A DNA stretch of 64,000 nt from the NCBI RefSeq assembly GCF_947494755.1, contig NZ_CANLVZ010000006.1, positions 1 to 64,000 on the forward strand. Direction: 5' to 3'. Origin of the DNA: an uncultured Tateyamaria sp. Lineage in GTDB: Bacteria > Pseudomonadota > Alphaproteobacteria > Rhodobacterales > Rhodobacteraceae. Numbering within the stretch: position 1 is the first letter of the stretch; each line of letters opens with the position of its first letter. The notes under the pieces were generated by a model. That model had not been told where the DNA came from, searched no databases, and was given only the letters and a program-made list of their open reading frames with translations. Below, piece by piece: positions 9,419 through 48,304 of this stretch. Made by a program: the position numbers and the translations under genes.

Positions 9419-9643
9419 CCCTTGGTTTCATGTTCCATTTCAACGCGTTTCTGCGGTGCAACATAATAAATTTTACAACTCGCGCCGCAGCCTTGTCGAT
9501 ATATTTACAAAATAATCGTGAGAAACAAGGGGTTTATTGCGCAATTTTCGAAAACCGGGGCATAACTAATTTGCATCAAAAGGTGCCGCGCACCCCTGCC
9601 CGAAGAAGCAAGGAGGCGCATTTCAACATTTGGGAGGATATTT

Positions 9644-10984: not shown

Positions 10985-11002
10985 GCGGCTCGCAACAAGA
11001 TC

Positions 11003-11028
11003 GGGGTGGGCAGGATTGCCCACCCTAC
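11003..11028. repeat. Palindromic intergenic hairpin (GGGTGGGCA / TGCCCACCC)
   Basis: Nine-base arms (11004-11012 and 11017-11025) around a GGAT loop, followed by TAC. It lies between the binding-protein gene and livH, where a stem-loop commonly lowers downstream expression relative to the binding protein. It resembles, but is not identical to, the ACA-loop repeats at 14097, 14138 and 19298: it shares the GTA-plus-G-rich outer edge but has a different loop. Confidence 0.7.
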
Positions 11029-11083
11029 CCTGCCCCGGCGCGCGCTGGTGTGGCACCTCTTGCTCAAACCAAAGGTCTGTCCG

Positions 11084-12115: not shown

Positions 12116-12118
12116 GCC

Positions 12119-13315
12119 ATGTTCGGACTTGAAGCCAAAGACTTTCGCCTTCTGCTGCTGGTCGCTTTGCTGACCATGGCCGCGCCCTTCATCCTCAACC
12201 CCTTCCCGGTCGATTCCGGCATGGCCCAGTTCAACGCGGGCTACCCGGACCTGATGCAGCGCTTCGTGATCTTCGGGATCTTCGCGATCGGGTTCAACAT
12301 CCTGTTTGGGCTGACGGGGTATCTGTCCTTCGGGCACGCAGCTTTCCTGGGTGTCGGCTCCTATGCGGCGATGTGGATGATGAAGCTGCTGACGATGAAC
12401 GTGATCCCCGGCATTCTGGTGTCGGTCGTCGTGGCCGGTATCTTCAGCCTCGCGGTGGGCTGGATCAGCCTGCGCCGCTCGGGCATCTACTTTTCGATCC
12501 TCACGCTGGCCTTTGCGCAAATGTCCTATTCACTGGCCTATTCGGTGCTGACACCGATCACGGGTGGCGAAACGGGCCTGCAACCCAAGGTCACCGATCC
12601 GCGCATCCTGGATGCCGCGCTGACGGGCAACGCACCCAAAGCCAACCTCTTCGGCCTCGAGATGGGCAGCAGCACGGACCTCGTCATGGGCGGATGGGTC
12701 TTCACCTTCAATGTGGGCTACTACGTGGCGGCTGTGGTGATGATCTTTGCCTTTTACATGTCGATCCGCATCTTCCGCTCGCCCTTTGGCATGATGCTGC
12801 GGGCGGTGAAATCCAACCAGCAGCGGCTGAACTATACCGGGCTCAACGCCAAACCCTACACGCTGGCGGCCTTCGTGATCTCGGGCATGTATGCCGGGCT
12901 TGCGGGCGGGCTGATGGTCGCGATGGACACGCAAGTGGGGGCCGAACGGATGTTCTGGACCGCCTCGGGCGAAGTGGTCCTGATGTCGATTCTGGGCGGC
13001 GTGGGCACGCTGATCGGGCCGGTGCTGGGCGCGGGCGCGATCAAGTACATGGAAAACATCCTGTCCAAGATCAACAAGGATATCCTCTATGAATGGTTCG
13101 CCTTCCTGCCCGATGGCTTGCAGGACTTCGTCATCACACTGGTCTATCCCTTCATCGGCAAAGGCTGGCACCTGACCCTCGGGCTGATCTTTATGGCCGT
13201 CGTCATCTTCCTGCCCGGCGGGCTGGTCGAGGGCGGACAGCGGATCGCGGCAATGTTCAAGCGCAAGAAGCCATCCGACAACACGCCTGACGGCAAAACC
13301 ACACCTGCGGAATAA
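12119..13315 (+). CDS. livM: HAAT ABC transporter permease, LivM type
   Basis: 398-aa permease with the LivM core '[25 protein letters not shown]' split across about residues 60-85 and the cytosolic '[17 protein letters not shown]' coupling loop. The charged C-terminal tail (KRKKPSDNT) is cytosolic. Spacing of 3 bp from livH and 14 bp to livG places it in one transcript. Substrate specificity is set by the binding protein, not by this subunit. Confidence 0.9.
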
Positions 13316-13329
13316 GAGGGGGAACGATC

Positions 13330-14094
13330 ATGGGAATTCTCGACGTCAAAGGTGTCGGCAAACGGTTCGGCGGGCTTCAGGCCCTTGGGGACGTGAATCT
13401 GAGCGTGGCGGAAAACTCGGTCCACGCGATCATTGGACCCAACGGGGCGGGCAAGTCCACACTGCTCAACTGTCTTGTGGGCAAGCTGATCCCCGACACA
13501 GGGTCCGTCATGTTCGACGGTCAATCCGTGCTGGGGCGCAAACCCTACGAGATCAACCAGATGGGTATTTCCCGTGTGTTCCAGACACCGGAAATCTTCG
13601 GCGATCTGACCGTGATGGAAAACATGCTGATCCCCTGTTTTGCCAAACGGGACGGGGCATTCACACCCAACGCCTATGCCGCGATGCGCAAGGACACCGA
13701 AATGCTCGACCGGGCTGGTCACATGCTCGAAGAGATGAACATGGCCGACAAGCGGCACATGCATGCCGCGTCCCTGTCGCGCGGCGACAAACGGCGACTC
13801 GAGATCGGGATGTGCCTGTCACAGGAACCACGCCTGTTGCTGCTGGACGAACCCACAGCCGGGATGGCGCGGGCGGATACGAACAACACCATCGATCTGC
13901 TCAAACAGATCAAGGATGACCGGGACATCACCATCGCCATCATCGAACACGACATGCATGTGGTGTTTTCACTGGCCGAAAGGATCACGGTGCTGGCGCA
14001 GGGCACGCCGCTGGTCGAAGACACGCCGGACAAGATCAAGGGCCACCCCAAGGTGCGCGAAGCCTACTTGGGCGAATCCCAGGACGCCGCCTGA
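13330..14094 (+). CDS. livG: HAAT ABC transporter ATP-binding protein, LivG type
   Basis: 254-aa ATPase. Walker A is GPNGAGKST near residue 38. The signature region reads LSRGDKRRLEIGMCL (variant of LSGGQ, with RGD in place of GGQ). Walker B is LLLLDEPTAGM, and a switch His is in IEHDMHVVF. LivG-type ATPases carry the extended 'PEIFGDLTVMENM' segment, also present. A GGGGGAA ribosome site precedes ATG 13330. Two hairpin repeats separate it from livF. Confidence 0.9.
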   Translation: MGILDVKGVGKRFGGLQALGDVNLSVAENSVHAIIGPNGAGKSTLLNCLVGKLIPDTGSVMFDGQSVLGRKPYEINQMGISRVFQTPEIFGDLTVMENMLIPCFAKRDGAFTPNAYAAMRKDTEMLDRAGHMLEEMNMADKRHMHAASLSRGDKRRLEIGMCLSQEPRLLLLDEPTAGMARADTNNTIDLLKQIKDDRDITIAIIEHDMHVVFSLAERITVLAQGTPLVEDTPDKIKGHPKVREAYLGESQDAA

Positions 14095-14096
14095 CG

Positions 14097-14122
14097 CGGG
14101 CGGGCGACACGCCCGCCTTACG
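14097..14122 (+). repeat. Hairpin repeat, ACA loop, CGCC-TTACG flank (copy 1)
   Basis: Structure: GGCG-GGCG, loop ACA, CGCC-CGCC, then TTACG. It lies 3 bp after the livG stop. Compared with the copies at 14138 and 19298, the inner four stem bases differ but still pair, while the outer GGCG/CGCC pairs, the ACA loop and the TTACG flank are kept. Confidence 0.8.
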
Positions 14123-14137
14123 AAGACCAACACAAAC

Positions 14138-14164
14138 GTAAGGCGGAGGTGTCCTCCGCCTTAC
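14138..14164 (-). repeat. Hairpin repeat, ACA loop, CGCC-TTAC flank (copy 2)
   Basis: A perfect 12-bp inverted repeat (14138-14149 and 14153-14164) around a 3-base loop. On the minus strand it reads GTAA-GGCG-GAGG, loop ACA, CCTC-CGCC-TTAC. It is the most complete copy, showing that the outer GTAA/TTAC can also pair. It sits 16 bp after copy 1, in opposite orientation, between livG and livF. Confidence 0.85.
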
Positions 14165-14189
14165 CGCGCCACCAAGCGAGGACACGACC

Positions 14190-14945
14190 ATGAACGTCAA
14201 ACCATCCTTCGAAAAAGGCATCAACCACGCCGCCACCGCCCCGGCCTTTTTGTCGGTCTGGGATATGCACGCCTATTACGGCGAAAGCTACATTGTGCAG
14301 GGCATAAGCTTTAACGTGCACGAAGGAGAGATCCTCGCCCTTCTGGGCCGCAACGGAGCGGGCAAGACCTCGACCTTGCGCTCCATCGCGCGTATTGGCG
14401 ATCCGGAAGTGACTCAAGGCGAAATCTGGCTCGATCACCAGCCGCTGCACAACATGTCCAGCCATGAAGCGGCCCAGCTTGGCCTCGGCCTCGTACCCGA
14501 AGACCGGCGCATCATCCCCGGCCTCACGGTCGAGGAAAACCTCAAGCTTGCCCAGATCGCGCCCCCCATCGGCTGGTCGATCGAGCGCCTCTATGATCTG
14601 TTCCCCCGCCTTGGCGAGCGACGCATGCAAGAGGGCACAACGCTGTCGGGCGGCGAGCAACAGATGCTCTCCATCGCACGCGCCCTGGCCCGCGACATCA
14701 AGGTGCTGCTGCTGGACGAACCCTATGAGGGGTTGGCCCCGGTGATCGTGGACGAGATCGAAAAGACGCTTGGGATCATCAAGGAACAGGGGATCACCAC
14801 CATCATCGTGGAACAAAACGCCGTGCGCGCCCTGCAACTGGCGGACCGGGCCGTGATCCTCGACACCGGCGGGATCGTTTTTGACGGCACCGCCGCCGAA
14901 GTGCTGGAAAACGAAGAACTGCGGTCCGAATACCTGGCCATCTGA
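14190..14945 (+). CDS. livF: HAAT ABC transporter ATP-binding protein, LivF type
   Basis: 251-aa ATPase with Walker [10 protein letters not shown], signature [15 protein letters not shown], Walker [14 protein letters not shown] and the family block '[19 protein letters not shown]'. The N terminus carries about 20 extra residues before the usual LivF start. It closes the operon that began at 9644; a strong terminator follows 25 bp downstream. The preceding GAGGAC is the likely ribosome site. Confidence 0.9.
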
Positions 14946-14969
14946 ACCCGATTTCACGCACGAAACACA

Positions 14970-14996
14970 AATCCGGTCCCAAGGGGCCGGATTTTT
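14970..14996 (+). terminator. Rho-independent terminator of the first HAAT operon
   Basis: Arms AATCCGGTCCC (14970-14980) and GGGGCCGGATT close over a tiny AA loop with one G-T pair and run into TTTTT. It lies 25 bp after livF and before the accB promoter region. Confidence 0.88.
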
Positions 14997-15135
14997 GCGT
15001 TCCCCAAGCTCCACGCAGGCCAAAGAACCGGCTCAACTGCGCTTTTCACATCCAATTCCAGTCGCTATACAAAAGGCCGAGCATTGGCGCGTGCCCTTAC
15101 GGCAGGCAGCTACAAGCCATCTGTTGAGGACAAGA

Positions 15136-15630
15136 ATGACAAAAAAACCCCATGACGCGGACGTGGCCTTTATTCAGGCACTGGCCGAATTGCTGCGCGA
15201 GAACGACCTGACCGAGTTGCAGGTGAAACGGGAATATGGCGAAGATGACAGCCTGAACGTGCGCGTCTCTCGTCAGATCATTCAGCAGGTGTCAGCCCAG
15301 GTGGCCGCCCCTGCACCAGCCGCAGCACCCGCACCCGCGGCGACCGCAGCTCCGGCCGCGGCGGCTCCCGCAGCGCCCACCGATCCGGCCAGCGACCCCG
15401 GTGCCGTGACCTCGCCCATGGTCGGCACGATCTACATGCAGGCCGAGCCCGGCGCGCCCGCCTTTATCAAGGTTGGCCAACACGTGGGCGAAGGCGACAC
15501 CCTGCTCATCGTTGAGGCGATGAAAACCATGAACCACATCCCCGCCCCCCGCGCAGGCACCGTCAAACGCATCCTTGTGGATGACGGCGCTGCGGTCGAA
15601 TTTGGCGCACCTTTGGTGATCCTCGAATAA
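15136..15630 (+). CDS. accB: Acetyl-CoA carboxylase biotin carboxyl carrier protein
   Basis: 164-aa carrier subunit of acetyl-CoA carboxylase, the first step of fatty-acid synthesis. The biotinyl domain at the C terminus has the biotinylation motif EAMKTM (Lys130), with '[19 protein letters not shown]' before it. An Ala/Pro-rich hinge spans about residues 55-85. The start ATG 15136 has GAGGA upstream; the open frame extends further 5' but into the intergenic region. It is followed 10 bp later by accC, the usual pair. Confidence 0.96.
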
Positions 15631-15640
15631 GGGGCTGAGC

Positions 15641-16987
15641 ATGTTCAAGAAAATCCTGATTGCCAACCGCGGAGAGATTGCGCTGCGCGTCATCAGGGCT
15701 GCGCGCGAAATGGGCGTGGCCACGGTCGCGGTCCATTCCACAGCGGATGCGGACGCCATGCATGTGCGTATGGCCGACGAGTCCGTGTGCATCGGCCCGC
15801 CCGCCTCCCCGCAGTCCTATCTCAGCTTTCCGGCGATCATTTCGGCCTGCGAAATCACCGGGGCCGAGGCGATCCACCCCGGCTATGGCTTCCTGTCCGA
15901 AAACGCGCAATTCGTGCAGATCGTCGAAGATCACGACCTGACCTTCATCGGCCCGACCGCCGAACATATCCGCGTCATGGGCGACAAGATCACCGCCAAG
16001 GACACGATGAAAGCGCTTGGCGTACCCTGCGTACCCGGCTCGGACGGCGGTGTCGCCACACTTGAAGAGGCGCAGGCGATCGGGGCCGAAATGGGCTATC
16101 CCGTCATCATCAAGGCGACTGCGGGCGGCGGTGGGCGCGGCATGAAAGTGGCCGAAACGGCGGCAGACATGGAACGCGCGTTCATGACCGCACGGGCCGA
16201 GGGCAAATCGAACTTCGGCAATGACGAAGTCTATATCGAAAAGTACCTGACGACGCCGCGCCATATCGAAATCCAGGTCTTTGGCGACGGCAAGGGGCGC
16301 GCGGTCCACTTGGGCGAGCGCGACTGTTCGCTGCAACGCCGCCACCAGAAAGTGTTCGAAGAGGCCCCCGGCCCCAGCATCTCAGCCGAAGAACGGGCCG
16401 CCATCGGCAAGGTCTGCGCAGATGCGGTTGCCCGCATCAACTATATCGGCGCGGGCACCATCGAGTTCCTCTATGAAAACGGCGAATTCTATTTCATCGA
16501 GATGAACACCCGCCTGCAGGTCGAACACCCCGTGACCGAGGCGATCTTTGACGTGGACCTTGTACGCGAACAAATCCGGGTGGCCTCGGGCATGGACATG
16601 TCGTTCACACAAGACGACCTCAAGATCCGCGGCCACGCCATCGAGGTGCGCATCAACGCCGAAAAGCTGCCGGAGTTCCGGCCCTGCCCCGGCAAGATCA
16701 CGCAATATCATGCGCCGGGCGGTCTGGGTGTGCGAATGGATTCCGCGCTCTATGACGGCTATTCCATCCCGCCCTATTACGACAGCCTGATCGGCAAACT
16801 GATTGTGCACGGACGTGACCGGTCCGAGGCGCTGGCCCGGCTCAACCGCGCGCTTGGCGAGTTGATCGTGGACGGGGTCGACACCACGGTGCCGCTGTTC
16901 CACGCGTTGCTGGCTGAAAAAGACGTGCACACCGGGGACTACAACATCCACTGGCTGGAAAAGTGGCTGGACGCACAGGCGGAGTGA
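15641..16987 (+). CDS. accC: Acetyl-CoA carboxylase biotin carboxylase subunit
   Basis: 448-aa ATP-grasp enzyme that carboxylates the biotin on AccB using ATP and bicarbonate. Visible motifs are the N-terminal '[17 protein letters not shown]', the ATP-binding glycine loop [10 protein letters not shown] at about 158-167, and the catalytic '[14 protein letters not shown]' at about 287-300. Length and sequence are fully typical. It is in the accB operon; the following aat starts 46 bp downstream. Confidence 0.97.
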
Positions 16988-17033
16988 CCGGAGGCGCCCG
17001 GCCCAAGCCTGTCTGGCAAGGCAACGGGATGAC

Positions 17034-17675
17034 ATGACAGAGCGGGTCCTGACCCCGGAACTGCTGCTGCAAGGCTACGCCTCGGGCATCTTTCCCATGG
17101 CAGAATCGCGTGATGATCCCGAGATTTTCTGGGTCGATCCCAAACTGCGTGGGGTGCTGCCGCTAGACGGCTTTCACATGTCGCGGTCGCTGATGCGCGA
17201 CATGCGGCGCACCGACTGGCGCTTGCAGACCAATACCGCGTTTGAGGCTGTGGTCGATGGCTGCGCCGACCGGATTGATACGTGGATCAACCCCGACATC
17301 CACCGCCTGTATCTGGAGTTGCACCAGATCGGCCACGCCCACTCCTTTGAAGTCTGGGACGAGGCGCGGTTGGTCGGCGGGGTCTACGGGGTGACGCTTG
17401 GCACCGCGTTTTTTGGGGAAAGCATGTTCTCGCGCGCCACCAACGGATCAAAAATGGCACTGGCGGCGGCGGTCGATCACCTGCTGCGCGCCAGATTCAC
17501 ATTATTTGACACCCAGTTCATCACGCCGCATCTGGCCAGCCTTGGGGCTATTGAAATCACCCGCGCCGCCTATCACCGGAAACTGGCGCAAGCCATGCGG
17601 CAGGAGGCTGCGTTCTCAAACGTGCCTCAGGCGACGCTTCAAGAGGTTGTGCAGCGGATGACCCAAACGTCGTAA
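17034..17675 (+). CDS. aat: Leucyl/phenylalanyl-tRNA-protein transferase
   Basis: 213-aa enzyme of the N-degron pathway. It adds Leu or Phe from aminoacyl-tRNA to proteins with N-terminal Arg or Lys, marking them for ClpS-ClpAP. Motifs: 'LLQGYASGIFPMAESRDDPEIFWVDP' in part, 'VGGVYGVTLG', 'FFGESMFSRATNGSKMAL' in part, and 'DTQFITPHLASLGA'. The accBC-aat order is common in this group. Its 3' end overlaps the convergent DUF2155 gene by 37 bp. Confidence 0.95.
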   Translation: MTERVLTPELLLQGYASGIFPMAESRDDPEIFWVDPKLRGVLPLDGFHMSRSLMRDMRRTDWRLQTNTAFEAVVDGCADRIDTWINPDIHRLYLELHQIGHAHSFEVWDEARLVGGVYGVTLGTAFFGESMFSRATNGSKMALAAAVDHLLRARFTLFDTQFITPHLASLGAIEITRAAYHRKLAQAMRQEAAFSNVPQATLQEVVQRMTQTS

Positions 17676-18001
17676 CGGGCGTGTTCCATCGCGTTGAGCG
17701 CCGGGGCGGACGCGATCATCCAGCCTGAAAACACGGTGCCATCACGACCCGTCTCGGTGATTTCAAGACCTGCAAAGGCGTTGCCAGACAGGTTGCCCGC
17801 CGGATAGCGGCATTCGGTCAGGGTGATGTTCAGACGTTCAAATGTCGCGGTTAACCCTGATCGCATTTCGATATCGACCACATTGCCGCTGAATTTATCA
17901 AGGCCGCGCAGGACAGCACCCGTCGCGGTCTCCGTCTCTTGCTGCGCACCAGCACTGGTGGCAAGCAACATGCCAATAACAAGCGCGGCGTGCATTTTCA
18001 T
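17639..18001 (-). CDS. DUF2155 domain exported protein
   Basis: 120-aa protein with a cleavable signal peptide (about residues 1-19, ending SAGAQQ) and the DUF2155 domain 'GAVLRGLDKFSGNVVDIEMRSG' in part, with the paired Cys in 'LTECRYP' and 'VWVIRCTTS'. Function is unknown. It is regularly found beside mlaD and NDUFA12 in alphaproteobacteria, as here, where its start overlaps the mlaD stop by 4 bp. It overlaps aat tail-to-tail by 37 bp. Confidence 0.88.
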   Translation of the reverse strand: MKMHAALVIGMLLATSAGAQQETETATGAVLRGLDKFSGNVVDIEMRSGLTATFERLNITLTECRYPAGNLSGNAFAGLEITETGRDGTVFSGWMIASAPALNAMEHARYDVWVIRCTTS

Positions 18002-18450
18002 TCGCTGTCGCCTCCGGAGACAAATTTCAACAGCAGGGAGATCAGGCTGACCGCGCCTTGGGTGTCGGTGATCTCGTCCCCCGGCTCGTAATAGAAGGGA
18101 GACCCACCGGGCACGATTTCCACGAAATTGCCGCCCAACAAGCCCTCGGAACTGATTACGATGGCGCTGTCGTCGGGGATTTGGGTGGTGGCGCGCAGAG
18201 ACACAATCGTGTCGGCGCGGTAGGTTTCGGGGTTCAGATCCACATCCGTCACCGTGCCGACCTTGACCCCGGCCAGACGCACATCGGTGCCCACTGTCAC
18301 GCCCTCAAGGCTGCGAAAGCTGGCATTGAGCGGGTATGTGGCGGCGCCTGCATTGCCCAGGCCCGCAACCTGCGCGCCATAGACCGCAAACCCGATTGCC
18401 GCCGCCAGTACGACGCCCCCCACAAGCACTTCTGCGGTGTTTTCCGCCAC
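17998..18450 (-). CDS. mlaD: Outer-membrane lipid asymmetry protein MlaD (MCE domain)
   Basis: 150-aa protein with one N-terminal membrane anchor (about 9-25) and a periplasmic MCE domain: 'YPLNASFRSLEGVTVGTDVRLAGVKVGTV' in part, ending 'GGNFVEIVPGG'. MlaD forms the hexameric ring of the Mla phospholipid transporter. GTG at 18450 is chosen because it gives the normal length and follows the NDUFA12 stop by 10 bp with an AGGGA site; the frame is open further upstream but inside that gene. Other mla genes are not in the window. Confidence 0.88.
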   Translation of the reverse strand: MAENTAEVLVGGVVLAAAIGFAVYGAQVAGLGNAGAATYPLNASFRSLEGVTVGTDVRLAGVKVGTVTDVDLNPETYRADTIVSLRATTQIPDDSAIVISSEGLLGGNFVEIVPGGSPFYYEPGDEITDTQGAVSLISLLLKFVSGGDSE

Positions 18451-18460
18451 AGCTGCGTCC

Positions 18461-18844
18461 CTATTCCGGGGTCCAGGCTTCGTAATCGGACCGGTCCGCA
18501 GGCTCGACCCGGCGCAGTGAGCCGGCAGGCGCATAGGCCATGGCGGTCCCTGTGAGGTTCGGCTGATGTGGCTTTTCCCAGTCTTTGCGCTTCAGCGGTT
18601 TGTCGGTTGGCGGCTCGTTCCATGTGCGGTGCAACCAGCCGTGCCATTCGGGGTCAATGCGGCTGGCCTCGGCCTCGCCATTGAAAATCACCCACCGTTT
18701 GCTGTCATCGGCATTCTTGTAGAATGTGTTGCCCTCGCTGTCGGCACCGACTTTGGTGCCCTTGCGCCACGTGAACAGTTGCGTGTTCAGCGTCTGCCCG
18801 TTCCACCAGGTCACTGACCGCAGCAAAGTGTTGAGAATGCCCAT
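18461..18844 (-). CDS. NADH:ubiquinone oxidoreductase accessory subunit NDUFA12
   Basis: 127-aa homologue of the B17.2 subunit, a supernumerary subunit of complex I shared by alphaproteobacteria and mitochondria. The typical N terminus '[15 protein letters not shown]', the mid-block '[23 protein letters not shown]' in part and the C-terminal '[11 protein letters not shown]' are present. It is the first gene of a three-gene leftward operon with mlaD and DUF2155. The nuo core operon lies elsewhere. Confidence 0.95.
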
Positions 18845-18916
18845 GTTTCGCCTCCGACGCTTTGGGTAAGTCTATGCCGTATCGCGCGCGCGCCGTCCAG
18901 AGGACACGCGCGCGCA

Positions 18917-19279
18917 TCAGGCAGGGATCAGCGCAGTCACTTCGATCTCGATCCGGAACTTGGGATCAAGCAGCCCGCATTCAATCATCGTGGCCGCAGG
19001 TGGATGCGCACCAAAGGTCGCCGACAGGATCGGCCAGCACGGTTCGAACTCAGCCCGGTCCGGCAGCATATAGGTGACGCGCACCACGTTCTGCCAGTCA
19101 GCCCCCGCCTCGAGGAGTGCTGCGTGGATGGTTTTGAGCGCATCGCGACACTGATCGGTGACCGTCTCGCCCTGCCCCACGGTGCCCGCCACGTGCACCC
19201 AACCGCCTGCGACAACGGCGCGGCAATAGCCTACTTTGGGTTCGAACTCACCGCCCGAGGAGATGCGTTTGATGGTCAT
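18917..19279 (-). CDS. RidA family protein
   Basis: 120-aa RidA/YjgF superfamily protein. Canonical RidA members hydrolyse reactive enamine/imine intermediates. Visible family lines are 'GYCRAVVAGGWVHVAGTVG' and 'VVRVTYMLPDRAEFE'. The catalytic Arg of archetypal RidA (R105 in the 'RVAV.V' context) is replaced near the C terminus, where the chain reads 'DPKFRIEIEVTALIPA', so it may belong to a Rid subgroup (Rid4-7) without imine deaminase activity. Monocistronic. Confidence 0.88.
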   Translation of the reverse strand: MTIKRISSGGEFEPKVGYCRAVVAGGWVHVAGTVGQGETVTDQCRDALKTIHAALLEAGADWQNVVRVTYMLPDRAEFEPCWPILSATFGAHPPAATMIECGLLDPKFRIEIEVTALIPA

Positions 19280-19297
19280 GTCCGGCCTCTGGTTTTT

Positions 19298-19322
19298 GGG
19301 CGTGCCACAGGCACGCCTTACG
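19298..19322 (+). repeat. Hairpin repeat, ACA loop, CGCC-TTACG flank (copy 3)
   Basis: Structure: GGCG-TGCC, loop ACA, GGCA-CGCC, then TTACG. The variable inner four pairs (TGCC/GGCA) differ from copies 1 and 2 yet still pair fully. It lies between the ridA start and the clpX stop. Confidence 0.8.
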
Positions 19323-19381
19323 GGGGATGTGAAAAAAGCGCGCCCGCAAGCACGCCCTTTTTGTTCAGCGACGCACCTCGT

Positions 19382-20647
19382 TCAACCAGCCGAGGCAGGC
19401 TCTTTCTCCGCATCCGCGTGAATCATGAGCGGCGCGGCGTCCGAGTTCACTGCCTCTTCGTTCACGACCACTTCGGTCACCGACTCAAGACCCGGCAATT
19501 CGAACATTGTGTCGAGCAGGATATCTTCGAGGATCGAGCGCAGACCCCGCGCACCTGTCTTGCGCTCAATCGCGCGTTTGGCGATGGCGCTGAGGGCGTC
19601 GTCGGTAAAGGTCAGTTCGGTGTCTTCGAGTTCGAACAGGCGCTGGTACTGTTTCACCAACGCGTTCTTGGGCGCGGTCAGGATGGTGACAAGCGCATCC
19701 TCATCCAGATCCTCAAGCGTCGCCAGAACCGGCAAACGACCCACAAATTCAGGGATCAGACCGAATTTCAACAGGTCTTCGGGTTCGAGATCGGTAAAGA
19801 TCTCGCCCACGCCGCGATCATCATTGTCACGCACATCCGCGCCAAAGCCCATGGCCGAGCCTTTGCCACGCGCCGCGATGATCTTGTCGAGACCCGCAAA
19901 GGCCCCGCCGCAGATGAACAGGATGTTGGTTGTGTCCACTTGAAGGAATTCCTGCTGCGGATGCTTGCGCCCGCCTTGCGGGGGCACGGAGGCAACGGTG
20001 CCTTCCATCAGTTTGAGCAACGCCTGCTGCACGCCCTCACCCGATACGTCGCGGGTGATCGAGGGGTTTTCGGATTTGCGCGTGATCTTGTCGACCTCGT
20101 CGATATAGACGATGCCGCGTTGGGCCCGTTCGACATTGTATTCCGAGGACTGGAGCAGCTTGAGGATGATGTTTTCGACATCTTCACCGACATAGCCCGC
20201 TTCGGTCAGGGTCGTGGCATCCGCCATGGTGAACGGCACATCCAGAATGCGCGCCAGCGTCTGCGCCAGCAAGGTCTTGCCGCACCCCGTGGGGCCGATC
20301 AGCAGGATGTTGGATTTCGCCAGCTCGATATCGCCGCCCTTCTGGGCGTGATTGAGGCGTTTGTAGTGGTTGTGCACGGCCACGGACAACACGCGCTTGG
20401 CCGTCGCCTGGCCAATGACGTAATCGTCAAGCACGCCGCAGATATCCTTGGGGGTCGGCACACCGTCGGTGGATTTGAGGCCGGACGCTTTGGTTTCCTC
20501 GCGGATGATGTCCATGCACAGCTCGACGCACTCATCGCAGATGAACACGGTGGGGCCCGCAATCAGTTTGCGCACTTCGTGCTGGCTCTTGCCGCAAAAG
20601 CTGCAGTAGAGGGTGTTTTTGCTGTCGCCGCTCGAATTCGTGGCCAT
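19382..20647 (-). CDS. clpX: ATP-dependent Clp protease ATP-binding subunit ClpX
   Basis: 421-aa AAA+ unfoldase that delivers substrates to ClpP. The N-terminal zinc finger uses Cys15, Cys18, Cys37 and Cys40. Walker A is [10 protein letters not shown] near residue 120, Walker B is VYIDEVDKI, and the pore loop GYVGED is present. In Caulobacter-like alphaproteobacteria ClpXP controls the cell cycle. ATG 20647 is the standard start (M-A-T-N); the frame stays open upstream without support. It lies 175 bp downstream of clpP on the same strand. Confidence 0.97.
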
Positions 20648-20822
20648 GTCGCGTCCTTCCCGGCTGGATGCCGCAATTTCTGGTGCCGGAATCCCGCCCG
20701 GCGCGCCCCGCGTGACTGCCAGCTTAGGCCAGCCCTGCGGGGTCCACAATCGTCTTTTTGCGCGGCCCTTGCGTCAGCCCGGACCGCGTCACGGACACCC
20801 CTGTCACAGGGGCGTGCACGCA

Positions 20823-21464
20823 TCAGGCGTCCGCGTCTTCCGCCTTGCCACGGCTTTCGACGATTTCATCGACGTGGCCCCATTCCTTCGCCTCTTCGGG
20901 CGTCATCCAAGTGTCGCGGTCCATTGCTTTCTGGACCGTTTCATAGTCCTGACCGGAATGTTTGACGTACATCTGATACATCCGCTCGCGGGTCTGTTCG
21001 ATGTGGCGGGCCGAAATCAGGATGTCGGCGGCCATACCCTGCGAACCCCCTGAGGGCTGGTGAACCATGATTTCGGAGTTGGGCAACGCGAAGCGCATGC
21101 CAGGCTCACCCCCGATCGCGATGGCCGACCCCATGGATGCCGCCATGCCGCAAATCAGCGTCGAAACCTTGGGCCGAATGTACTGCATCGTGTCATAGAT
21201 CGAAAAACCGGCTGTCACTTCGCCACCGGGCGAGTTTACATACATGCTGATCTCCTTGGAGGGGTTTTCCGCCTCAAGGTGCAACAACTGGGCGACGATC
21301 AGGTGGCTCATCCCGCTGTGGATCGGGCCGTTGATGAAAATGATCCGCTCTTTCAGCAGGCGCGAAAAGATATCATAGGCCCGTTCGCCCCGGCTGGTCT
21401 GCTCGACCACCATCGGGACCAGATTATTGGTGACGTGTTGGAATTGTTCAATGGGATCGCGCAT
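20823..21464 (-). CDS. clpP: ATP-dependent Clp protease proteolytic subunit ClpP
   Basis: 213-aa serine peptidase forming the tetradecameric barrel. Catalytic Ser100 is in MAASMGS, His125 is in MVHQPSGG, and the acidic residue is in the MDRD stretch at about 171-174. The substrate-groove line '[12 protein letters not shown]' is also present. ATG 21464 gives the standard N terminus 'MRDPIEQFQ...[20 protein letters not shown]'. It is transcribed ahead of clpX, as usual. Confidence 0.97.
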
Positions 21465-39990: not shown

Positions 39991-40335
39991 ATGCCCGCCA
40001 AAACCGATCACCGCCTGACCATTCGGTTCACGCCGCAGGAGTATGCCCTTTTGCAGGCCAAGGCGGGTGATACGGCATTGAGCGCTTTTGTGCGTAAAGC
40101 GGCTTTGGGCGAGGTTGCGGCGCAGCGGGCAAAGCCTTTGCGCAGACCGAAGGCGGATCAACGTGATTTGGCTGCGATCTTGGCGCGCCTGTCTTTGCAT
40201 CCCTTGGTACAGTCTTTCAAAGATGCCGACAGAGATGTCGCAGACGCCACAACGACAGACAAACTGGATACCTGCGCAGCGCTTTTAGAGGACGTGCGCG
40301 CGATGCTGATGCAGGCGCTGGGGAAAGCGCCATGA
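39991..40335 (+). CDS. mobC: MobC-like relaxosome protein
   Basis: 114-aa protein of the bacterial mobilization (MobC) type: a ribbon-helix-helix-like N terminus 'DHRLTIRFTPQEYALLQAKA' in part with 'LSAFVRKAALG', then a helical C terminus. MobC assists strand separation at oriT. It overlaps the relaxase start by 4 bp (ATGA), the usual mobC-mobA coupling. An oriT would be expected in the 39840-39990 region but I could not define it. Confidence 0.82.
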   Translation: MPAKTDHRLTIRFTPQEYALLQAKAGDTALSAFVRKAALGEVAAQRAKPLRRPKADQRDLAAILARLSLHPLVQSFKDADRDVADATTTDKLDTCAALLEDVRAMLMQALGKAP

Positions 40336-43142
40336 TCCTCAAAGGCAGCCAGCGCAGTGGTGGCAGAGCTTTAGCGCTGCACCTGTTGAACGCACAGGAC
40401 AATGACCACATCACCGTGCATCAATTGCGTGGATTCCTGAGCGATGACCTCGCAGGGGCCTTTGCTGAGGTTGAGGCTGTGGCATCCGGCACGCGCTGTG
40501 TGCAGCCGTATTTCAGCGTGTCGGTTAATCCGCCACCTGAGCGCAGCGCCGAACTGACGGACAAAGACTTTCGCGCAGCGGCCTACAAAATTGAGCGTGC
40601 GCATGGCCTCAAGGGCCATCCCCGCGCCATCGTCTTTCATGAGAAAGACGGGCGCAGACATGCGCACATCGTCTGGTCGAGGATCGACGCCCAAACGATG
40701 ACGGCCAAGAACCTTGCGCATTACAAACGCAAGTTGATGGGCGTGAGCAAAGAACTTTTTCTGGAGCATGGATTCGATCTGCCCAAGGGGTTCGATGATC
40801 CAGCCCTTGCGTCACAGGACCGCGTTTCCCTTGCCGAATGGCAGGCCGCCAAACGGCGTGGACGCAATGCCATCGATCAAAGGCAGTTGATCAAGCAGTG
40901 CTGGGAGGTCAGCGATGGCAAAGCCGCGTTTCAAGCGGCCTTGGCTGAACACGGGTTTGCCTTGGCGCGCGGTGACAGGCGTGGGCATGTGATTGTTACT
41001 GCCCATGGACAGATCATCGCCGTTGCACGCGCCGTTGGTGTCAAAACCAAAGAGGTACGCGCAAAGCTGGGGGATGCAGATGCATTGCCCGGCGTCGAAA
41101 CGGCCCGTTCAAACCTTGCCCAAGATGCCACCGCTCGCTTTGCGCAAGCGGCACGCGAGATACGATCCGGCCTTTCAGAGCAACGCCGCGCGCTTGATAA
41201 AAAGCGCCAAGCACAGATCAAGGCGCACCGTTCTGCGCGTGAGGCGCTAAAACGCACACATGTAAAAGCCCGCGCTGACGCTGTTGCGCAGATCATGCCA
41301 ACCCGTGGCGGGCTTGCCGGATTGTGGGATCAAATCACGAAGTCCGGTCAACGGCGGAAAGATCTTCGAGCGCTCAAGACGCGCCTCGATACAGAGCAAG
41401 CTGCCGAATGGCATGACTTGCGCCGCACGCAGTTAAACGAGCGCCGTGTATTGGAGGCCAAACGCACTGAGCTGCGGCGTGCGGCCTTTGGCCTTGTGGG
41501 TGATCTGCGCGCTGAGCGTGACGTGATGGTTGCGCAACTGACGGGGGCCGCACCGCCACTCAAAGGCAAATTAAAAGATCAGTTCGCGGGCACCATCCCC
41601 GCCGACCCAAGACAAACGTTCTTCGCCCGCGAGGCGACAGGCCCCGTCACGGATGCCCAAATCAGGGCGAACCCCGTGCGCCTTTTGGATCGTCTTGGGT
41701 ATTTCAACGCGGCCTTCACCGAGCGTGATATCAGCCGCGCTCTGGCCAAGATATTCCCTGATCCGCTCTCTGCATTGAGTGCGAAGAAAGCCGTACTTGC
41801 CGCGCCAGACCTATTGCGCATGGAAGGCAATGAGCGCCGCTTTACCACGCGTGATTACGTTCACGCGGACACGCGCCTGCAATCGACGTCTCGCACTCTT
41901 TTAATGCGGCGTTGCAAAGCACCAAAGCGCCAGCAGATTGAACACGCGGTCACTACGCAGAACCGAGTATTGGCCAAATTTAGCGCGGTTCTCAGCAACG
42001 AACAACGCAACGCAGTGGTCCAGATGACCGACACGTCGCGCCTGTCGATGGTTGTTGGGCGTGCGGGCACGGGCAAAAGCACGATCCTTGCTGCCGCCAA
42101 TGATGCATGGGCAAAGGCCGAGATCACCGTCCACGGCGCAGCCCTGTCCGGCAAAGCCGCAGCAGGTCTGCAAGGGGCCTCGGGCATCGCCAGCCGCACT
42201 TTGGCGTCGCTGGAACTCAGTTGGGCCAATGGCCATGAACCGATCAAACCCGGCGACGTGTTGGTCATTGATGAGGCGGGCATGGTCGGCACACGCCAAC
42301 TGGACCGGATCGCCCACAAGATTGACGAGATCGGTACAAAATTGGTTTTGGTCGGCGATCCGGATCAATTGCCCCCAATTGAAGCTGGGCAGCCGTTTCG
42401 AGGGTTAATTGACCGCCACGGGGCTGCATGGCTTTCCGAAGTGCACCGCCAGACATCGGGCTGGCAAAAAGACGCCACAGGTGATTTGGCAGCAGGCCGG
42501 ATCACTCAAGCTGTGGCGGCCTATGCTGCGAAAGGCTGCGTCACCCCCGCACCGTCGCAAAACAGCGCGATTGCGCATTTGACCCAAGACTATCTGACGG
42601 ATCGCGCTGCTGCACCGGATACATCTCGTTTGATCCTGGCCCACCGCCGCCGAGATGTGCACGCGCTTAACCAATCTGTGCGCGAGACATTGAAGTTTGC
42701 TGGAGACCTTGCAGAAGGTCCGTTGCTAACCACCGATCAAGGACCGCGTGAGTTTGCCGCGCGCGACCGCGTCGTGTTCACCGCCAATGACCGCGACATC
42801 GGCGTCAAAAACGGCATCCTTGGTACAGTCCGCCATGCCAGCGATACGAAGATCACGGTTGATCTGGATGACGGTGGCCGGGTGTCGTTCGATCCTGTCC
42901 AGTTCCGTTCTTTTGATCATGGCTATGCCGTCACGATCCACAAGTCGCAGGGTGTGACCGTGGATCAGGCCTATGTGCTGGCGTCAAGGACGATGGATGA
43001 TCCGCTGACCTACGTGGCAATGACGCGGCACCGCAATGACATGCGCTTGTATGTCAGCAAAGAGGATCGTCCCACTTGGCAGGACGTGGCTAGGCCCAGA
43101 TCAACGTCTGAACAGCAGCCGGGCATGCGGTTTCGAACGTGA
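40332..43142 (+). CDS. Relaxase-helicase fusion
   Basis: 936-aa protein. Residues about 1-160 are a relaxase/mobilization nuclease domain with the metal-binding pattern HEKDGRRHAHIVWSR (His103, His110, His112). A charged coiled middle follows. Residues about 560-900 form a superfamily 1 helicase of the TraA/RecD type: Walker A GRAGTGKST near 575, Walker B VIDEAGM near 645, 'VGDPDQLPPIEAG', and 'IHKSQGVTVDQAYV' near 867. No Tyr occurs before residue 60, so the catalytic tyrosine of motif I is not in its usual place. It initiates conjugative strand transfer from an oriT. Confidence 0.9.
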   Translation: MILKGSQRSGGRALALHLLNAQDNDHITVHQLRGFLSDDLAGAFAEVEAVASGTRCVQPYFSVSVNPPPERSAELTDKDFRAAAYKIERAHGLKGHPRAIVFHEKDGRRHAHIVWSRIDAQTMTAKNLAHYKRKLMGVSKELFLEHGFDLPKGFDDPALASQDRVSLAEWQAAKRRGRNAIDQRQLIKQCWEVSDGKAAFQAALAEHGFALARGDRRGHVIVTAHGQIIAVARAVGVKTKEVRAKLGDADALPGVETARSNLAQDATARFAQAAREIRSGLSEQRRALDKKRQAQIKAHRSAREALKRTHVKARADAVAQIMPTRGGLAGLWDQITKSGQRRKDLRALKTRLDTEQAAEWHDLRRTQLNERRVLEAKRTELRRAAFGLVGDLRAERDVMVAQLTGAAPPLKGKLKDQFAGTIPADPRQTFFAREATGPVTDAQIRANPVRLLDRLGYFNAAFTERDISRALAKIFPDPLSALSAKKAVLAAPDLLRMEGNERRFTTRDYVHADTRLQSTSRTLLMRRCKAPKRQQIEHAVTTQNRVLAKFSAVLSNEQRNAVVQMTDTSRLSMVVGRAGTGKSTILAAANDAWAKAEITVHGAALSGKAAAGLQGASGIASRTLASLELSWANGHEPIKPGDVLVIDEAGMVGTRQLDRIAHKIDEIGTKLVLVGDPDQLPPIEAGQPFRGLIDRHGAAWLSEVHRQTSGWQKDATGDLAAGRITQAVAAYAAKGCVTPAPSQNSAIAHLTQDYLTDRAAAPDTSRLILAHRRRDVHALNQSVRETLKFAGDLAEGPLLTTDQGPREFAARDRVVFTANDRDIGVKNGILGTVRHASDTKITVDLDDGGRVSFDPVQFRSFDHGYAVTIHKSQGVTVDQAYVLASRTMDDPLTYVAMTRHRNDMRLYVSKEDRPTWQDVARPRSTSEQQPGMRFRT

Positions 43143-43657
43143 TTGCTGACGGTTGGTTAACTAACCCCTTCGATTGGGAAATCGACAAGGAATTTTACCA
43201 AAAACCAACAGACACACACAAGGCGATCCAGTGAGCAGTCATTGGTGCATCGCGCGGCTAAGGTCCGGAGAGAGCCCAAGGCGGTCATCAGTTTTTTTCG
43301 CTGCAAGCGCAAACTGCGCACAAATTGCCGCGCCAGCGAAAATTTCAGTGCTATTGGGCGGATAGAATAGCAGCCATTCGTTCACGGTGTCGTCCGCCCT
43401 GCTCTCATGCAACGTGTTGGGTTCGAAGTTCGAGCGAGAACGCTGTGCCAGTTTCCAGAGAAGGGCAGGCCCTACAAGGACGGTTACAGGGTTTTGGTGG
43501 CTGACAGAGGCTACCGGATCTACTATCGTGCCGACCATGGACGTGAGATTGTTGTAGTCTTGCACTTTCTAGGTTCCAAAGAACTTGCACGCTAGGGATA
43601 GCATGCAGCAATGTGAAAAGGGAATGCAGTGCAGAAAATTTTGGACCGTCATCACAG
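43143..43657 (+). other. Intergenic stretch with ParE/RelE-like toxin fragment
   Basis: No full-length gene is evident. On the plus strand 43371-43595 encodes 'FPEKGRPYKDGYRVLVADRGYRIYYRADHGREIVVVLHF' in part (residues given here as separated motifs: PEKGRPYKDGYR; YRIYYRADHG; VVVLHF), which resembles the C-terminal half of ParE/RelE-superfamily plasmid toxins, with an ATG at 43407. The N-terminal half and an antitoxin gene are not seen, so it is probably a decayed toxin-antitoxin module. The minus-strand frame 43239-43565 is likely its shadow. Confidence 0.4.
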
Positions 43658-43969
43658 ATGAACTTAGCAGCAATTTTTTTAGCTATTGCGATCGCCTTTG
43701 CTTCTCTGCCGACCTCAAGCCCTGCAGAAGCAATAATAGAAAAGTGTGTGCCAATATCTTTTTCGGGAGAAATTAATTCTACAAATGGGTTTCACCTGAG
43801 ATACCAAGATGCAGGCAAAAATTTTAGAAAGTATTTTGTTTACAATAGTAAAAGTGGTTGCAGCTTAATTGTAGAAGAAAAGCTTGAAACAGAGCGCGAT
43901 AGAATATGGCTATTTAGAATGGCGGAACTTACTACTGGAATCCCAGTTTGTTCGCCCTTCGCCGGTTAA
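43658..43969 (+). CDS. Small AT-rich gene, exported protein
   Basis: 103-aa product with a clear signal peptide (about 1-24, ending SSPAEA) and two Cys in the mature part. No recognised family. Base composition and codon use are far more AT-rich than the flanking mobilization genes. Its 3' end overlaps the next frame (43884-44189) by 86 bp; the two could be one gene broken by a frameshift near 43940, which would give a continuous exported protein of about 175 aa. Confidence 0.5.
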   Translation: MNLAAIFLAIAIAFASLPTSSPAEAIIEKCVPISFSGEINSTNGFHLRYQDAGKNFRKYFVYNSKSGCSLIVEEKLETERDRIWLFRMAELTTGIPVCSPFAG

Positions 43970-44189
43970 AGTTAGTCGGTTTTTACAAGACAGAAAGGTT
44001 GAGTCAGAGATAGTTAATCAGGAATTCAAGGAGTGCCGAAGGTTGCATACAAGGCAAGAATGTAAGGGAATAGTTGTGGAAAAAACACAAAATAACTCGG
44101 CGATTGTTTCTATTGATCGAGTGGGCAAGAGGTCAGTGATAAATTTATATATGAGCAGCGCATATTTAAATGGAGGTCAGCATGACTAA
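43884..44189 (+). CDS. Small AT-rich gene or 3' part of a frameshifted one
   Basis: 101-codon frame with a TTG at 43884 and only an AT-rich product rich in Lys, Glu and Arg; two Cys (ECRRLHTRQEC). No family recognised. Its stop overlaps the start of the Hint-domain gene (ATGACTAA), so translation into that gene is coupled. It may be the C-terminal half of the exported protein at 43658 after a frameshift. Confidence 0.45.
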   Translation: MKQSAIEYGYLEWRNLLLESQFVRPSPVKVSRFLQDRKVESEIVNQEFKECRRLHTRQECKGIVVEKTQNNSAIVSIDRVGKRSVINLYMSSAYLNGGQHD

Positions 44190-45861
44190 TTTTTCGATAT
44201 CTGATGAGCTTAGAGGTACGGTTGCTGAGAGAGCTACGGATTTTTTGAACAGCGGTACAATAAATTTTGACGTAGTATCCGCCGACGGGAACAGTGCGGC
44301 AGCGCTGTCACTAATTGAGGTCCGGTTGGGTGACTCAAACTTAGTTTCGTCTGGTGTTAGAGGCTATTCTCACTTGAATAGTACGGGGGTGAATGGGGTA
44401 GGTACTGTTTGGACATTTCCCGATAGGATGGGGGTTCGAGAAAAAGCTCAGTTAGATAGGCAAATTACAAATATCATACATGAAGCGAATCATCTTGATG
44501 AAGACATTGACCGCCAAAGGGCTCAAATTAGCTCTGATTTAGCGGCGTTGGGTGTAGATACGTCAAAAGAAAGGGTGCAAGTTGTTATCGAAGAGAAGCG
44601 CGTTAGGGATGCCACTAACGTAATCGATGAGCTTTCTCCAAGTTTTAGAGCTAGAGGTCATTTCGATAATATTGACACGGTAATCTCAAAGTATGGTCGA
44701 GGCCAGTTATCTGATGAAGAAAAGGGCGCGATTCGAGATTACTTCAATGGATCAAGCTACAATGCTCCAACAGTTGAGCTCAATGGTAAGATTTATGGCG
44801 TTAATGTAAATGGTGACTTGGTTGAACACCTAGATGGACAAGAAGTAATCGTTGAAGAAGTATCGGCTAGCGACGAATGCTTCCTAGCTGATACATCAAT
44901 TCGCATGTGGCCACGTGATCCGTCTATTAAACCGCGCGCGGACGGCAGCTATGACGAAGAGCTGGTGCTTTCGAAGGTCTGGCACAAGCCGATCAGCGAA
45001 ATCGCAGTCGGTGACATTATCGTGGCTTACGACAAGCAAGGGCGGTTGCAGCCGGACCGCGTCACGCGAACGATGCAGAACAACGCCACGCATATTCTGG
45101 ACTTCTGGGGCACGGGCGTCACACCTGGTCACGCCTGCTATTGCGCTGACGGCCCGTTCAAGGGCGAACATGCACCCATCATGGACATTCTGCGCACGGA
45201 TACAGCCATGATGCGCACGGATGGCACGATGTTCCGTGCGACAACCAATTGCGAAGTTGGTTCGATCGGGGATCGCATGATCCATGCTGAGGCAAGCGCC
45301 CAAAAGCCAGACGGCTCGTGGACGCCCAAGAAGCGCGGTCAAATTCGCTTTGGCACCCGCATTTCGACGCCGGACGGCAAGAAAAGCGTGTCCGTTATGG
45401 AGATCGCCGAGCGAAAGGGCTGGAGCCTGTCTGATGATGGCTACATGGTCGGCAAGATCGAGGGGGAGGACGGCACGCTTCATGAAAGCAAATTCCCGTT
45501 CCCTTACACCGATAGCGCAGAGCTGCCAAAGCCAGAGGATTACATCCTCACACGTTCGCAGGTCACGCTTGAGGACATCTACAAGGCCGGTGAGTGGGAA
45601 CAGATCGGCACACGGATGCCTGCACCGGCAGGCATGGTTGGGTTCAACCCGAACGCCACCAGTACGATGTTGCAGCCGTCCAAGCCAAAACCCAACCTTC
45701 CGCCCGCTTTTGCGAACCGCTCAGACGTTCCGGCGTCGCTCAGCAAGGCGCAACGCCCTGCACAGGCCGCTGCTGCACCTTCAATGAACCGCAAGCAGCG
45801 TAAGGCCATGGAAGCCAAACAGCGCAAAGCGGCCAAGGCCCGCAGACGGCTGGCGAGCTGA
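44182..45861 (+). CDS. Chimeric protein with AT-rich N-terminal module and Hint (hedgehog/intein) domain
   Basis: 559 aa from ATG 44182, which has an ideal GGAGG site (44172-44176); a weaker in-frame ATG is at 44170. Residues 1-232 are an unrecognised module, helical and charged, coded by AT-rich DNA. Cys233 begins a Hint domain (ECFLADTSI; EIAVGDIIVAYD; TPGHACYCADG with His317), whose coding sequence switches to GC-rich within about 20 codons. No C-terminal HN motif is present; the chain continues about 180 residues to a basic Lys/Arg tail. The UGA stop is followed after one codon by an in-frame ATG of the next ORF, which does carry a Hint C-terminal motif. Confidence 0.8.
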   Translation: MTNFSISDELRGTVAERATDFLNSGTINFDVVSADGNSAAALSLIEVRLGDSNLVSSGVRGYSHLNSTGVNGVGTVWTFPDRMGVREKAQLDRQITNIIHEANHLDEDIDRQRAQISSDLAALGVDTSKERVQVVIEEKRVRDATNVIDELSPSFRARGHFDNIDTVISKYGRGQLSDEEKGAIRDYFNGSSYNAPTVELNGKIYGVNVNGDLVEHLDGQEVIVEEVSASDECFLADTSIRMWPRDPSIKPRADGSYDEELVLSKVWHKPISEIAVGDIIVAYDKQGRLQPDRVTRTMQNNATHILDFWGTGVTPGHACYCADGPFKGEHAPIMDILRTDTAMMRTDGTMFRATTNCEVGSIGDRMIHAEASAQKPDGSWTPKKRGQIRFGTRISTPDGKKSVSVMEIAERKGWSLSDDGYMVGKIEGEDGTLHESKFPFPYTDSAELPKPEDYILTRSQVTLEDIYKAGEWEQIGTRMPAPAGMVGFNPNATSTMLQPSKPKPNLPPAFANRSDVPASLSKAQRPAQAAAAPSMNRKQRKAMEAKQRKAAKARRRLAS

Positions 45862-45864
45862 TCC

Positions 45865-46077
45865 ATGAGTGACCACGACAAAGACGATTTGGAAGGGGTG
45901 GAAGCCATTCCAGTCTATGATCGCGTGACCTCAAGATTTGAATGGCGCAAAAGACCGGTGGACGTGCCGGAACCGCCCCGCTGGCGAACCTATGGGATTG
46001 AGGTGTCCGACGAGAACGGCAACCCGATGCCATTTGTGGCAAACGGCATGTGGGTTAAGAACGTACCCAATACGTGA
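45865..46077 (+). CDS. 70-aa protein ending in a Hint/intein C-terminal-like motif
   Basis: Small acidic-start protein. Near the end it reads YGIEVSDENGNPMPFVANGMWVKN, to be taken as two blocks: YGIEVSDENG and FVANGMWVKN. This resembles the F and G blocks of inteins (compare the general form 'vyDi.Ve..hnF.a.NG.i.HN'), with Lys in place of the penultimate His and Asn66 conserved; only V-P-N-T follows. It starts 3 bp after the upstream stop, in the same frame (TGA-TCC-ATG). It could be the C-half of a split Hint, or the tail of the upstream protein after stop readthrough or a nonsense mutation. Confidence 0.6.
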   Translation: MSDHDKDDLEGVEAIPVYDRVTSRFEWRKRPVDVPEPPRWRTYGIEVSDENGNPMPFVANGMWVKNVPNT

Positions 46078-47579: not shown

Positions 47580-47731
47580 ATTCCTAGGTTTTTGGACAGA
47601 GGTGATCTTTACGGGATTCTATGGTTGGGGTAAACAGGACAGCACGGAACACAGCGGTTTGCGCGCAATGTCAAGCGCGGCGCGGCGTCAATTTTGACAG
47701 GATCGGAAAGGTAGGTTTTCGATCACAAATC

Positions 47732-48304
47732 ATGCCCCGCACCCTTGGCTACATCCGCGTGTCCACGCGCTCCCAAATGCCGGATCGGCAGATCGACGCC
47801 TTGCGCGCGACCTGCGATGAACTTCATATCGAATACGTTTCTGCCGTCGCCGATGCACGCCCTGTGTTTGATTGCGTGATTGACGCACTTGCGCCGGGTG
47901 ACAGCTTTGTTGTCACGGATTTGGATCGCGCCTTTCGCTCTTCCATCGACGCGATCTTGACGGCGGAACATTTGCGCCAGATGGGCGTGACGTTCCGCAT
48001 CCTGTCTATGGCCATTGATACCAGCACGGCCGAGGGCGAGCTTTATTATACGATCGTTGCGGGCTTTGCGCAGTTCGAGCGCCGCATGATTTCAAGGCGC
48101 ACCAAGGAAGGGTTGGCGGCAGCCCGCGCCAGAGGGGTACAACTGGGGCGTCGCCCCAAGTTGTCAGAGGCGGATGTATTGGCGGCATATCGCCAGCTTG
48201 ACTCGATGTGCTGTCAGGACGTGGCGGCGGTGCATGGCGTGTCCCGATTGACGCTGCAACGCGCGTTCAGGCGGTTTGGATTGGCCTATCCGCTGGAGGG
48301 ATAA
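47732..48304 (+). CDS. Serine recombinase (resolvase/invertase family)
   Basis: 190-aa small serine recombinase. The catalytic Ser11 is in YIRVSTRSQ, and the DR-type motif region reads 'VVTDLDRAFRSSIDAILTAEHL' in part, followed by 'FAQFERRMISRRTKEGLAAARARG' in part (E helix) and a C-terminal HTH. This is the size and order of Tn3-resolvase/DNA-invertase proteins. Likely role: dimer resolution or inversion for the element. No res sites were identified. Confidence 0.92.
   Translation: MPRTLGYIRVSTRSQMPDRQIDALRATCDELHIEYVSAVADARPVFDCVIDALAPGDSFVVTDLDRAFRSSIDAILTAEHLRQMGVTFRILSMAIDTSTAEGELYYTIVAGFAQFERRMISRRTKEGLAAARARGVQLGRRPKLSEADVLAAYRQLDSMCCQDVAAVHGVSRLTLQRAFRRFGLAYPLEG

Follow-up and report, generated by a model that had tools for sequence, protein, structure and literature searches.

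A probable orphan cassette of an alphaproteobacterial polymorphic toxin family with a naturally split Hint domain

Introduction

To our knowledge, most natural split inteins have been described in housekeeping genes, and bacterial intein-like (BIL) domains have no settled biological role. Type A BIL domains carry a C-terminal His-Asn and no nucleophile at the following (+1) position, and it has been proposed that they ligate when a freed amine attacks the N-terminal thioester (part of the account in PMC4031507). For polymorphic toxins, an excerpt of Zhang et al. (2012, PMC3482391) lists HINT domains with type II, type V and type VII secretion systems and TcdB/TcaC. Here, we analyzed 64,000 nucleotides from an uncultured Tateyamaria sp. 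of the Rhodobacteraceae (contig NZ_CANLVZ010000006.1, positions 1 to 64,000 of the forward strand; the window), in which an open reading frame (ORF) containing the N-terminal half of a Hint domain (HintN), ORF1, is followed by a 70-residue frame, ORF2. The window probably holds an orphan cassette of an alphaproteobacterial polymorphic toxin family with a naturally split Hint; in relatives, the C-terminal half (HintC) lies at the start of a separate RTX gene, the carrier.

The carrier loci of this family resemble type A BIL domains in having an N-terminal Cys, a TxxH block and a C-terminal His-Asn without a fixed +1 nucleophile, and BIL domains are the best structural matches of a member with both halves fused (locus L082). 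Unlike type A BIL domains, the family is split over two genes, has a long conserved extension after TPGH and has a C-half that opens an RTX carrier, and the window pair lacks His-Asn. With naturally split inteins of the DnaE type it shares N- and C-halves on separate genes and, for the predicted window HintN structure, a match to Npu DnaE (4qfq_A, E 0.14); it differs from them in its variable N-exteins, in the absence of a conserved +1 Cys or Ser and in not residing in a housekeeping enzyme. Module swapping, stand-alone cassettes and a Hint beside the toxin are shared with the polymorphic toxins with HINT, as portrayed in part of PMC3482391. Compared with that portrayal the present arrangement is a mirror image, with the toxin N-terminal and the candidate immunity gene upstream, and it differs further in its split Hint and RTX carrier. 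The Neisseria MafB toxins, in an excerpt of PMC4287609, likewise have an A-type BIL domain where the constant part adjoins the variable one; there, unlike here, the whole BIL domain sits in one protein and the variable part is C-terminal. The first-pass annotation of this DNA knew of no described system with such a layout on a Rhodobacterales mobile element. Our own literature searches turned up no description of a Hint domain divided between a toxin gene and an RTX carrier, an absence that is no proof because only open-licence papers were covered.

Results

As the first-pass annotation had stated, ORF1 contains a Hint N-half and no C-half, with Cys233 at codon 44878-44880 (context SASDECFLAD) and His317 of the TPGH block at codon 45130-45132 (context GVTPGHACY). 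ORF1 was single-copy in its own genome. From about residue 228 on, relatives were present in 11 of 295 genomes of the family and in 12 of 390 of the order, its own genome being counted in both; one of the order genomes, G173, matched at 6.9e-4 only. All these matches left the N-terminal part uncovered. A profile built from ten ORF1 relatives (A1) led to 55 loci in GTDB genomes, from 113 pattern matches, and these loci we take to be alphaproteobacterial from their record names. The sample examined below consisted of the window, loci L050 to L104, and L033, L034, L035, L038 and L041, with the weak HintC match of L034 excluded.

Downstream of many of the ORF1 genes, a large ORF opens with VYNFEVxxxHTYIAxGxRVHNxS. 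HintC was detected in 24 ORFs. In 22 of these it stood without HintN, whereas two ORFs combine the halves, namely L082 (HintN 404-631, HintC 689-717) and the second ORF of L057 (HintN 191-273, HintC 334-369). For 21 of the 22 unfused HintC ORFs (the exception being L095), a HintN ORF of the same strand was found no more than 1.9 kb upstream, an adjacency that is partly by design because the loci were fetched via HintN; in L041 and L104 this upstream ORF1 is broken. The first-pass suggestion of a naturally split Hint was right for the family, the halves being on separate genes in 21 carrier loci and fused in L082 and L057. A HlyC-type gene stood between ORF1 and the carrier, or adjoined the carrier, in 14/22 unfused loci. 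Pfam scans detected RTX repeats in all three carriers scanned and HlyC in all three small genes scanned (HlyC 9.6e-26 and 3e-20).

Ten HintC residues were invariant in all 24 ORFs: N, F, V, H, Y, A, V, H, N and Ser at +2. The residue at +1 after His-Asn varied (T 8, Q 4, R 4, D 3, K 2, E 2, S 1), so that the carrier loci have the His-Asn of a type A BIL with no required +1 nucleophile, together with the separately encoded halves of a split intein (22 unfused vs 2 fused HintC ORFs). Since the intact split loci fit the type A BIL description, we refer to the family as a split, type-A-like BIL; the window pair does not fit it, because His-Asn is absent there. The HintC starts weakly matched PT-HINT (0.018) and Intein_splicing (0.091), at C-terminal positions of both models. 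In a structure prediction of the fused L082 Hint (mean pLDDT 75.2), HintN was confident, the HintC strands were fair and the linker was disordered, and the best PDB matches were BIL domains (2lwy 4e-4, 6y75 1.2e-3), with inteins also matched. In locus L052 (KLH11, 4164-20908), three consecutive HintN ORF1 modules accompany a single HintC RTX carrier, the clearest sign that one carrier may serve several modules.

HintC and HintN co-occurred across genomes: among the 295 family genomes, 11 had HintC, 11 had HintN and five had both (Fisher p 1e-5), two of the HintC-only genomes being weak matches and one of the five with both (G053) carrying an internal stop. Among the 25 genomes behind 27 ORF1 loci, 13 had HintC at E 0.01 or better; in one of these the carrier adjoins ORF1 (G602), and in another it is the fused ORF of L057 (G608).

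The first-pass annotation had proposed a check against Hint and intein profiles, and its outcome was mixed. Neither ORF1 nor ORF2 of the window gave a Hint match in Pfam, NCBIfam or PHROGs (E up to 1). With the limit set at E 0.5, the Pfam Hint module PF01079 was matched by five of the ten A1 members (best 7.5e-5), and Vint, Hint_2 and Hom_end_hint were each weakly matched by two or three, the families weakly matched by ORF1 relatives being PF01079, PF13403, PF14623 or PF05203; the window member matched none of the Pfam families. Cys-Phe and TPGH were invariant in 47/47 aligned HintN rows, which had been selected for CF upstream of TPGH. VTxGH was present in 50 of 53 ORF1-type frames, with CF 30-130 residues upstream in 49 of those 50, and the one frame lacking it, L081, is frame-broken; L069 has ITPGH with Cys-Phe in place, and L101 and L102 begin inside the Hint domain. 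As judged from codon comparisons, HintN is under purifying selection, dN/dS being 0.12 to 0.36 in pairs with the window at dS above 1.3, which is near saturation. The predicted structure of the window N-half (residues 226-559) had a mean pLDDT of 86, with helices at its end, and its PDB matches were led by BIL2 (E 0.017), followed by hedgehog (0.025) and, among inteins, 4qfq_A (0.14), a 101-residue chain of native split Npu DnaE with a TM score by target of 0.68. We take 4qfq chain A to be the N-half of Npu DnaE.

Phage records yielded nothing, and none of 19 IMG/VR stretches fitting a pattern was a relative. The sole matches in plasmid records were two weak ones of the window HintN to Trichormus variabilis (NC_007412.1 80104-80337 and NZ_CP047244.1 159211-159444; E 3e-3), in a protein annotated as hemolysin-type calcium-binding; these are possible distant relatives outside the Alphaproteobacteria.

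The N-terminal domains differ in composition from what follows. Their GC content was below that of the Hint part in 49/49 loci (means of 46.7 for N-terminal domains, 58.4 for Hint parts and 43.7 for the 500 bp upstream), L053 being left out of the count because its N-terminal domain is cut; in the window the values are 43.8% for this domain and 59.1% for the remainder of ORF1. Pfam scans of 48 N-terminal domains, excluding L053 and the cut L091, returned phage lysozyme (6e-31, L083), TseH-like (7.2e-21), cell wall hydrolase (1.6e-8), Mbeg1-like (3.8e-8, L085), DUF6973 (5.8e-8, L056), colicin M (1.6e-6), AHH nuclease (2.2e-5) and weaker matches. Lipase and nuclease families are thus represented along with those of lysozyme, TseH and colicin M. 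Each family was matched by one or two domains, and toxin families account for a minority of the 48. Loci whose HintN parts are dissimilar can have a toxin module in common, a sign of module swapping: L058 and L089 agree at 66% over 211 aa in the N-terminal module vs 32% in HintN. The family therefore pairs a conserved part with toxin domains that vary, as polymorphic toxins do. Two candidate relatives of the window N-terminal domain, L107 and L108, were dismissed as weak and chance-like, the only two in 385 class genomes. An ORF ended near the ORF1 start in 34/40 loci, many with a hydrophobic start, and these upstream ORFs would fit what is expected of immunity genes; the one scanned with Pfam matched Imm11 at 3.3e-4 and 20.5 bits, below the cut-off of 22.1.

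ORF2 was found where the first-pass annotation had placed it, in the frame of ORF1 just past the TGA and containing FVANGMWVKN, and it ends VPNT downstream of this block. A small gene of the ORF2 type follows ORF1 in 10 of the 53 frames, the window counted, with an altered or early end in L052b, L057 and L060; L034 and L035, outside the 53 frames, retain broken remnants. Seven small genes were aligned (A3). Their profile was compared with HintC and gave a probability of 13.6 and E 0.0021 over 27 columns, a weak link that stood above shuffled controls, the score being reached in 1/200 shuffles of the HintC columns and 0/200 of the small-gene columns; reversed HintC scored 6.1 vs 18.5 for the real comparison. 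By eye, FVANGMWVKN and FIAHPIPFKN align without gaps to Y[IV]A[GD]GxRVHN. One KLH11 small gene has nine identities with the start of the carrier over 17 residues (E 1e-4, one pair). The small-gene dN/dS was 0.24 and 0.15 in the two of six pairs that were computable, the three window pairs not being among them. The second-best ORF2 match in the family genomes (G143, E 3.3e-4) lies within a 178-aa ORF, with no ORF1 relative within the fetched 14 kb.

By these comparisons, window ORF2 belongs to a conserved small-gene family and is probably an altered HintC. The first-pass annotation had proposed ORF2 as the C-half; where relatives have a carrier, the RTX gene start rather than a 70-aa ORF supplies the C-half, and window ORF2 is at best an altered one. 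The small-gene family lacks both the block-F His and the penultimate His, and window ORF2 has Lys-Asn in place of the C-terminal His-Asn of type A BIL domains and split inteins. Because both histidines are missing, the Asn cyclisation once proposed for ORF2 is doubtful. The argument that Val after Asn excludes splicing was too strong in general, as type A BIL domains can ligate without a +1 nucleophile (part of PMC4031507); in the window, the pair is unlikely to splice by itself, because ORF2 lacks the catalytic histidines. More probably, ORF2 serves to cap or fold the N-half, or is in decay.

The C-terminal residue of ORF1 was His or Asn in 30/53 frames, compared with about 8% of stop-to-stop segments at least 250 aa long. 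All 30 were among the 43 frames without a small gene, vs 0/10 with one (p 6e-5, only indicative because the frames are related); six of the seven aligned small genes themselves end LN or LH (window: VPNT). Not included in the 53 were 14 more HintN frames from L050-L104 that are broken, partial, fused or cut (the fused L057 frame, the second of L071, the first half of L081, L082, two of L090, three of L097, L098, two of L099, L100 and L104); in no case is their last residue His or Asn. A cause at the DNA level was ruled out, stop codons and downstream DNA being different.

Discussion

We favor, as the rather likely interpretation, that the family is a naturally split, type-A-like BIL that links interchangeable toxins and an RTX carrier, or releases them in trans, the window being an orphan cassette. 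The gene layout is shown by the loci above, and the chemistry is inferred. Hint halves from ORF1 and the carrier would assemble, and the HintN Cys would form a thioester with the toxin domain. Asn cyclisation would set the carrier N terminus free, and the freed amine would attack the thioester, ligating toxin to RTX carrier by type A BIL chemistry for export through a type I system; as a fallback, the toxin would merely be released. If true, such a BIL, divided between an exchangeable toxin and a secretion carrier in shared use, would provide BIL domains with a biological role, represent a polymorphic toxin system in mirror image that uses RTX carriers, and offer a source of split inteins independent of the +1 nucleophile.

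Several observations weigh against this interpretation. No carrier HintC was detected in the window genome (99.85% complete, 60 contigs; best E 0.197), and 12 of the 25 genomes with ORF1 had no recognisable HintC (L054, L055, L059, L062 and others). The window N-terminal domain matched no toxin family in Pfam, and the HintN model had no PDB match below E 0.001, its matches being mixed with unrelated folds. The HintC hidden Markov model did not match window ORF2 below E 0.5, and the profile link of the small genes to HintC (probability 13.6) stops short of the Lys-Asn end. An ABC-exporter-like ORF was seen in 2/23 carrier loci in a crude motif scan, the HintN-HintC adjacency owes part to locus selection, and the Hint halves could be inactive or cleavage-only.

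Cleavage without ligation, in which the assembled halves release the toxin by thioester hydrolysis and the carrier separately, is conceivable and somewhat doubtful. A possible nucleophile (T or S) occupies +1 in only 9/24 HintC sequences, cleavage products dominate in known type A BIL domains (part of PMC4031507) and the Hint of polymorphic toxins is taken to release toxins (excerpt of PMC3482391); against this, the +2 Ser in 24/24 suggests constraint beyond the cleavage site, and export would be unexplained if a toxin without its own secretion signal were released from a separate carrier. We give similarly tentative standing to decay of the window cassette, with ORF1 still open, ORF2 a relic of a carrier start and nothing made or joined. 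The missing carrier, the Lys-Asn and absent block-F His of ORF2, the broken state of the nearest relatives (L034, L035, L038) and two ORFs upstream of ORF1 that overlap as though frameshifted all argue for decay, whereas ORF1 is intact across 559 aa with the HintN dN/dS given above (near saturation), and the small gene is retained in several species at low dN/dS in the two computable pairs.

That window ORF1 and ORF2 form a complete minimal Hint, freeing the N-terminal domain with no carrier needed, appears improbable: a conserved small-gene family adjoins ORF1 and has a weak profile link to HintC, whereas the family lacks His-Asn and the block-F His and many orphan ORF1s have no small gene. 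Least credible, to the point of near exclusion, is that UGA is read through or that one Hint gene was recently cut by a nonsense mutation; readthrough and nonsense mutation had both been raised by the first-pass annotation. ORF1 and the small gene share a frame in the window, L051, L052, L053, L057 and L063; we reject both ideas because the stop codon (TGA, TAG or TAA) and the frame vary among relatives, the small gene being out of frame in L056, L058 and L060, and each small gene starts from its own ATG or TTG.

Returning to the split, type-A-like BIL, a more speculative extension, which we hold to be possible and no better than tentative, is a combinatorial weapon: several interchangeable toxin-HintN proteins per genome would be trans-spliced post-translationally by the split BIL onto one shared RTX carrier, and in orphan cassettes a dead C-half (ORF2) or an ORF1 His/Asn tail would hold the N-half until a carrier displaces it.

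Genomic context

The features of the cassette are collected in Table 1. ORF1 starts at the ATG at 44182, with GGAGG at 44172-44176 and a second in-frame ATG at 44170, and a single codon (TCC) separates its TGA from the ATG of ORF2.

Table 1. Features of the cassette in the window
Feature	Positions	Strand	Remarks
ORF1, 559 aa	44182..45861	+	Variable N-terminal domain, then Hint N-half, then tail; stop TGA 45859-45861
Variable N-terminal domain of ORF1, candidate toxin module	44182..44877	+	GC 43.8%; no Pfam match
Hint N-half with conserved extension reaching MPAPAG	44878..45633	+	Cys233, TPGH; model of residues 226-559
ORF1 tail, basic stretch MNRKQRKAMEAKQRKAAKARRRLAS at its end	45634..45858	+	Helix in predicted structure
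ORF2, 70 aa, small-gene family member, probably altered Hint C-half	45865..46077	+	
FVANGMWVKN, block F/G-like, Lys-Asn	46033..46062	+	Aligned to HintC by eye
Two overlapping low-GC ORFs, up to ORF1 start	43613-43969, 43884-44189 (43613..44189)	+	Candidate immunity gene place

The overlapping pair upstream of ORF1 had no relative among the studied loci and is perhaps one gene broken by a frameshift. Farther upstream, 40332-43142 encodes a relaxase that includes a RecD-like helicase part (Pfam Relaxase 1.2e-13, AAA_30 2.2e-53) and is a conjugative element gene, and downstream of the cassette, at 47621-48304, lies an ORF that by eye is serine-resolvase-like.
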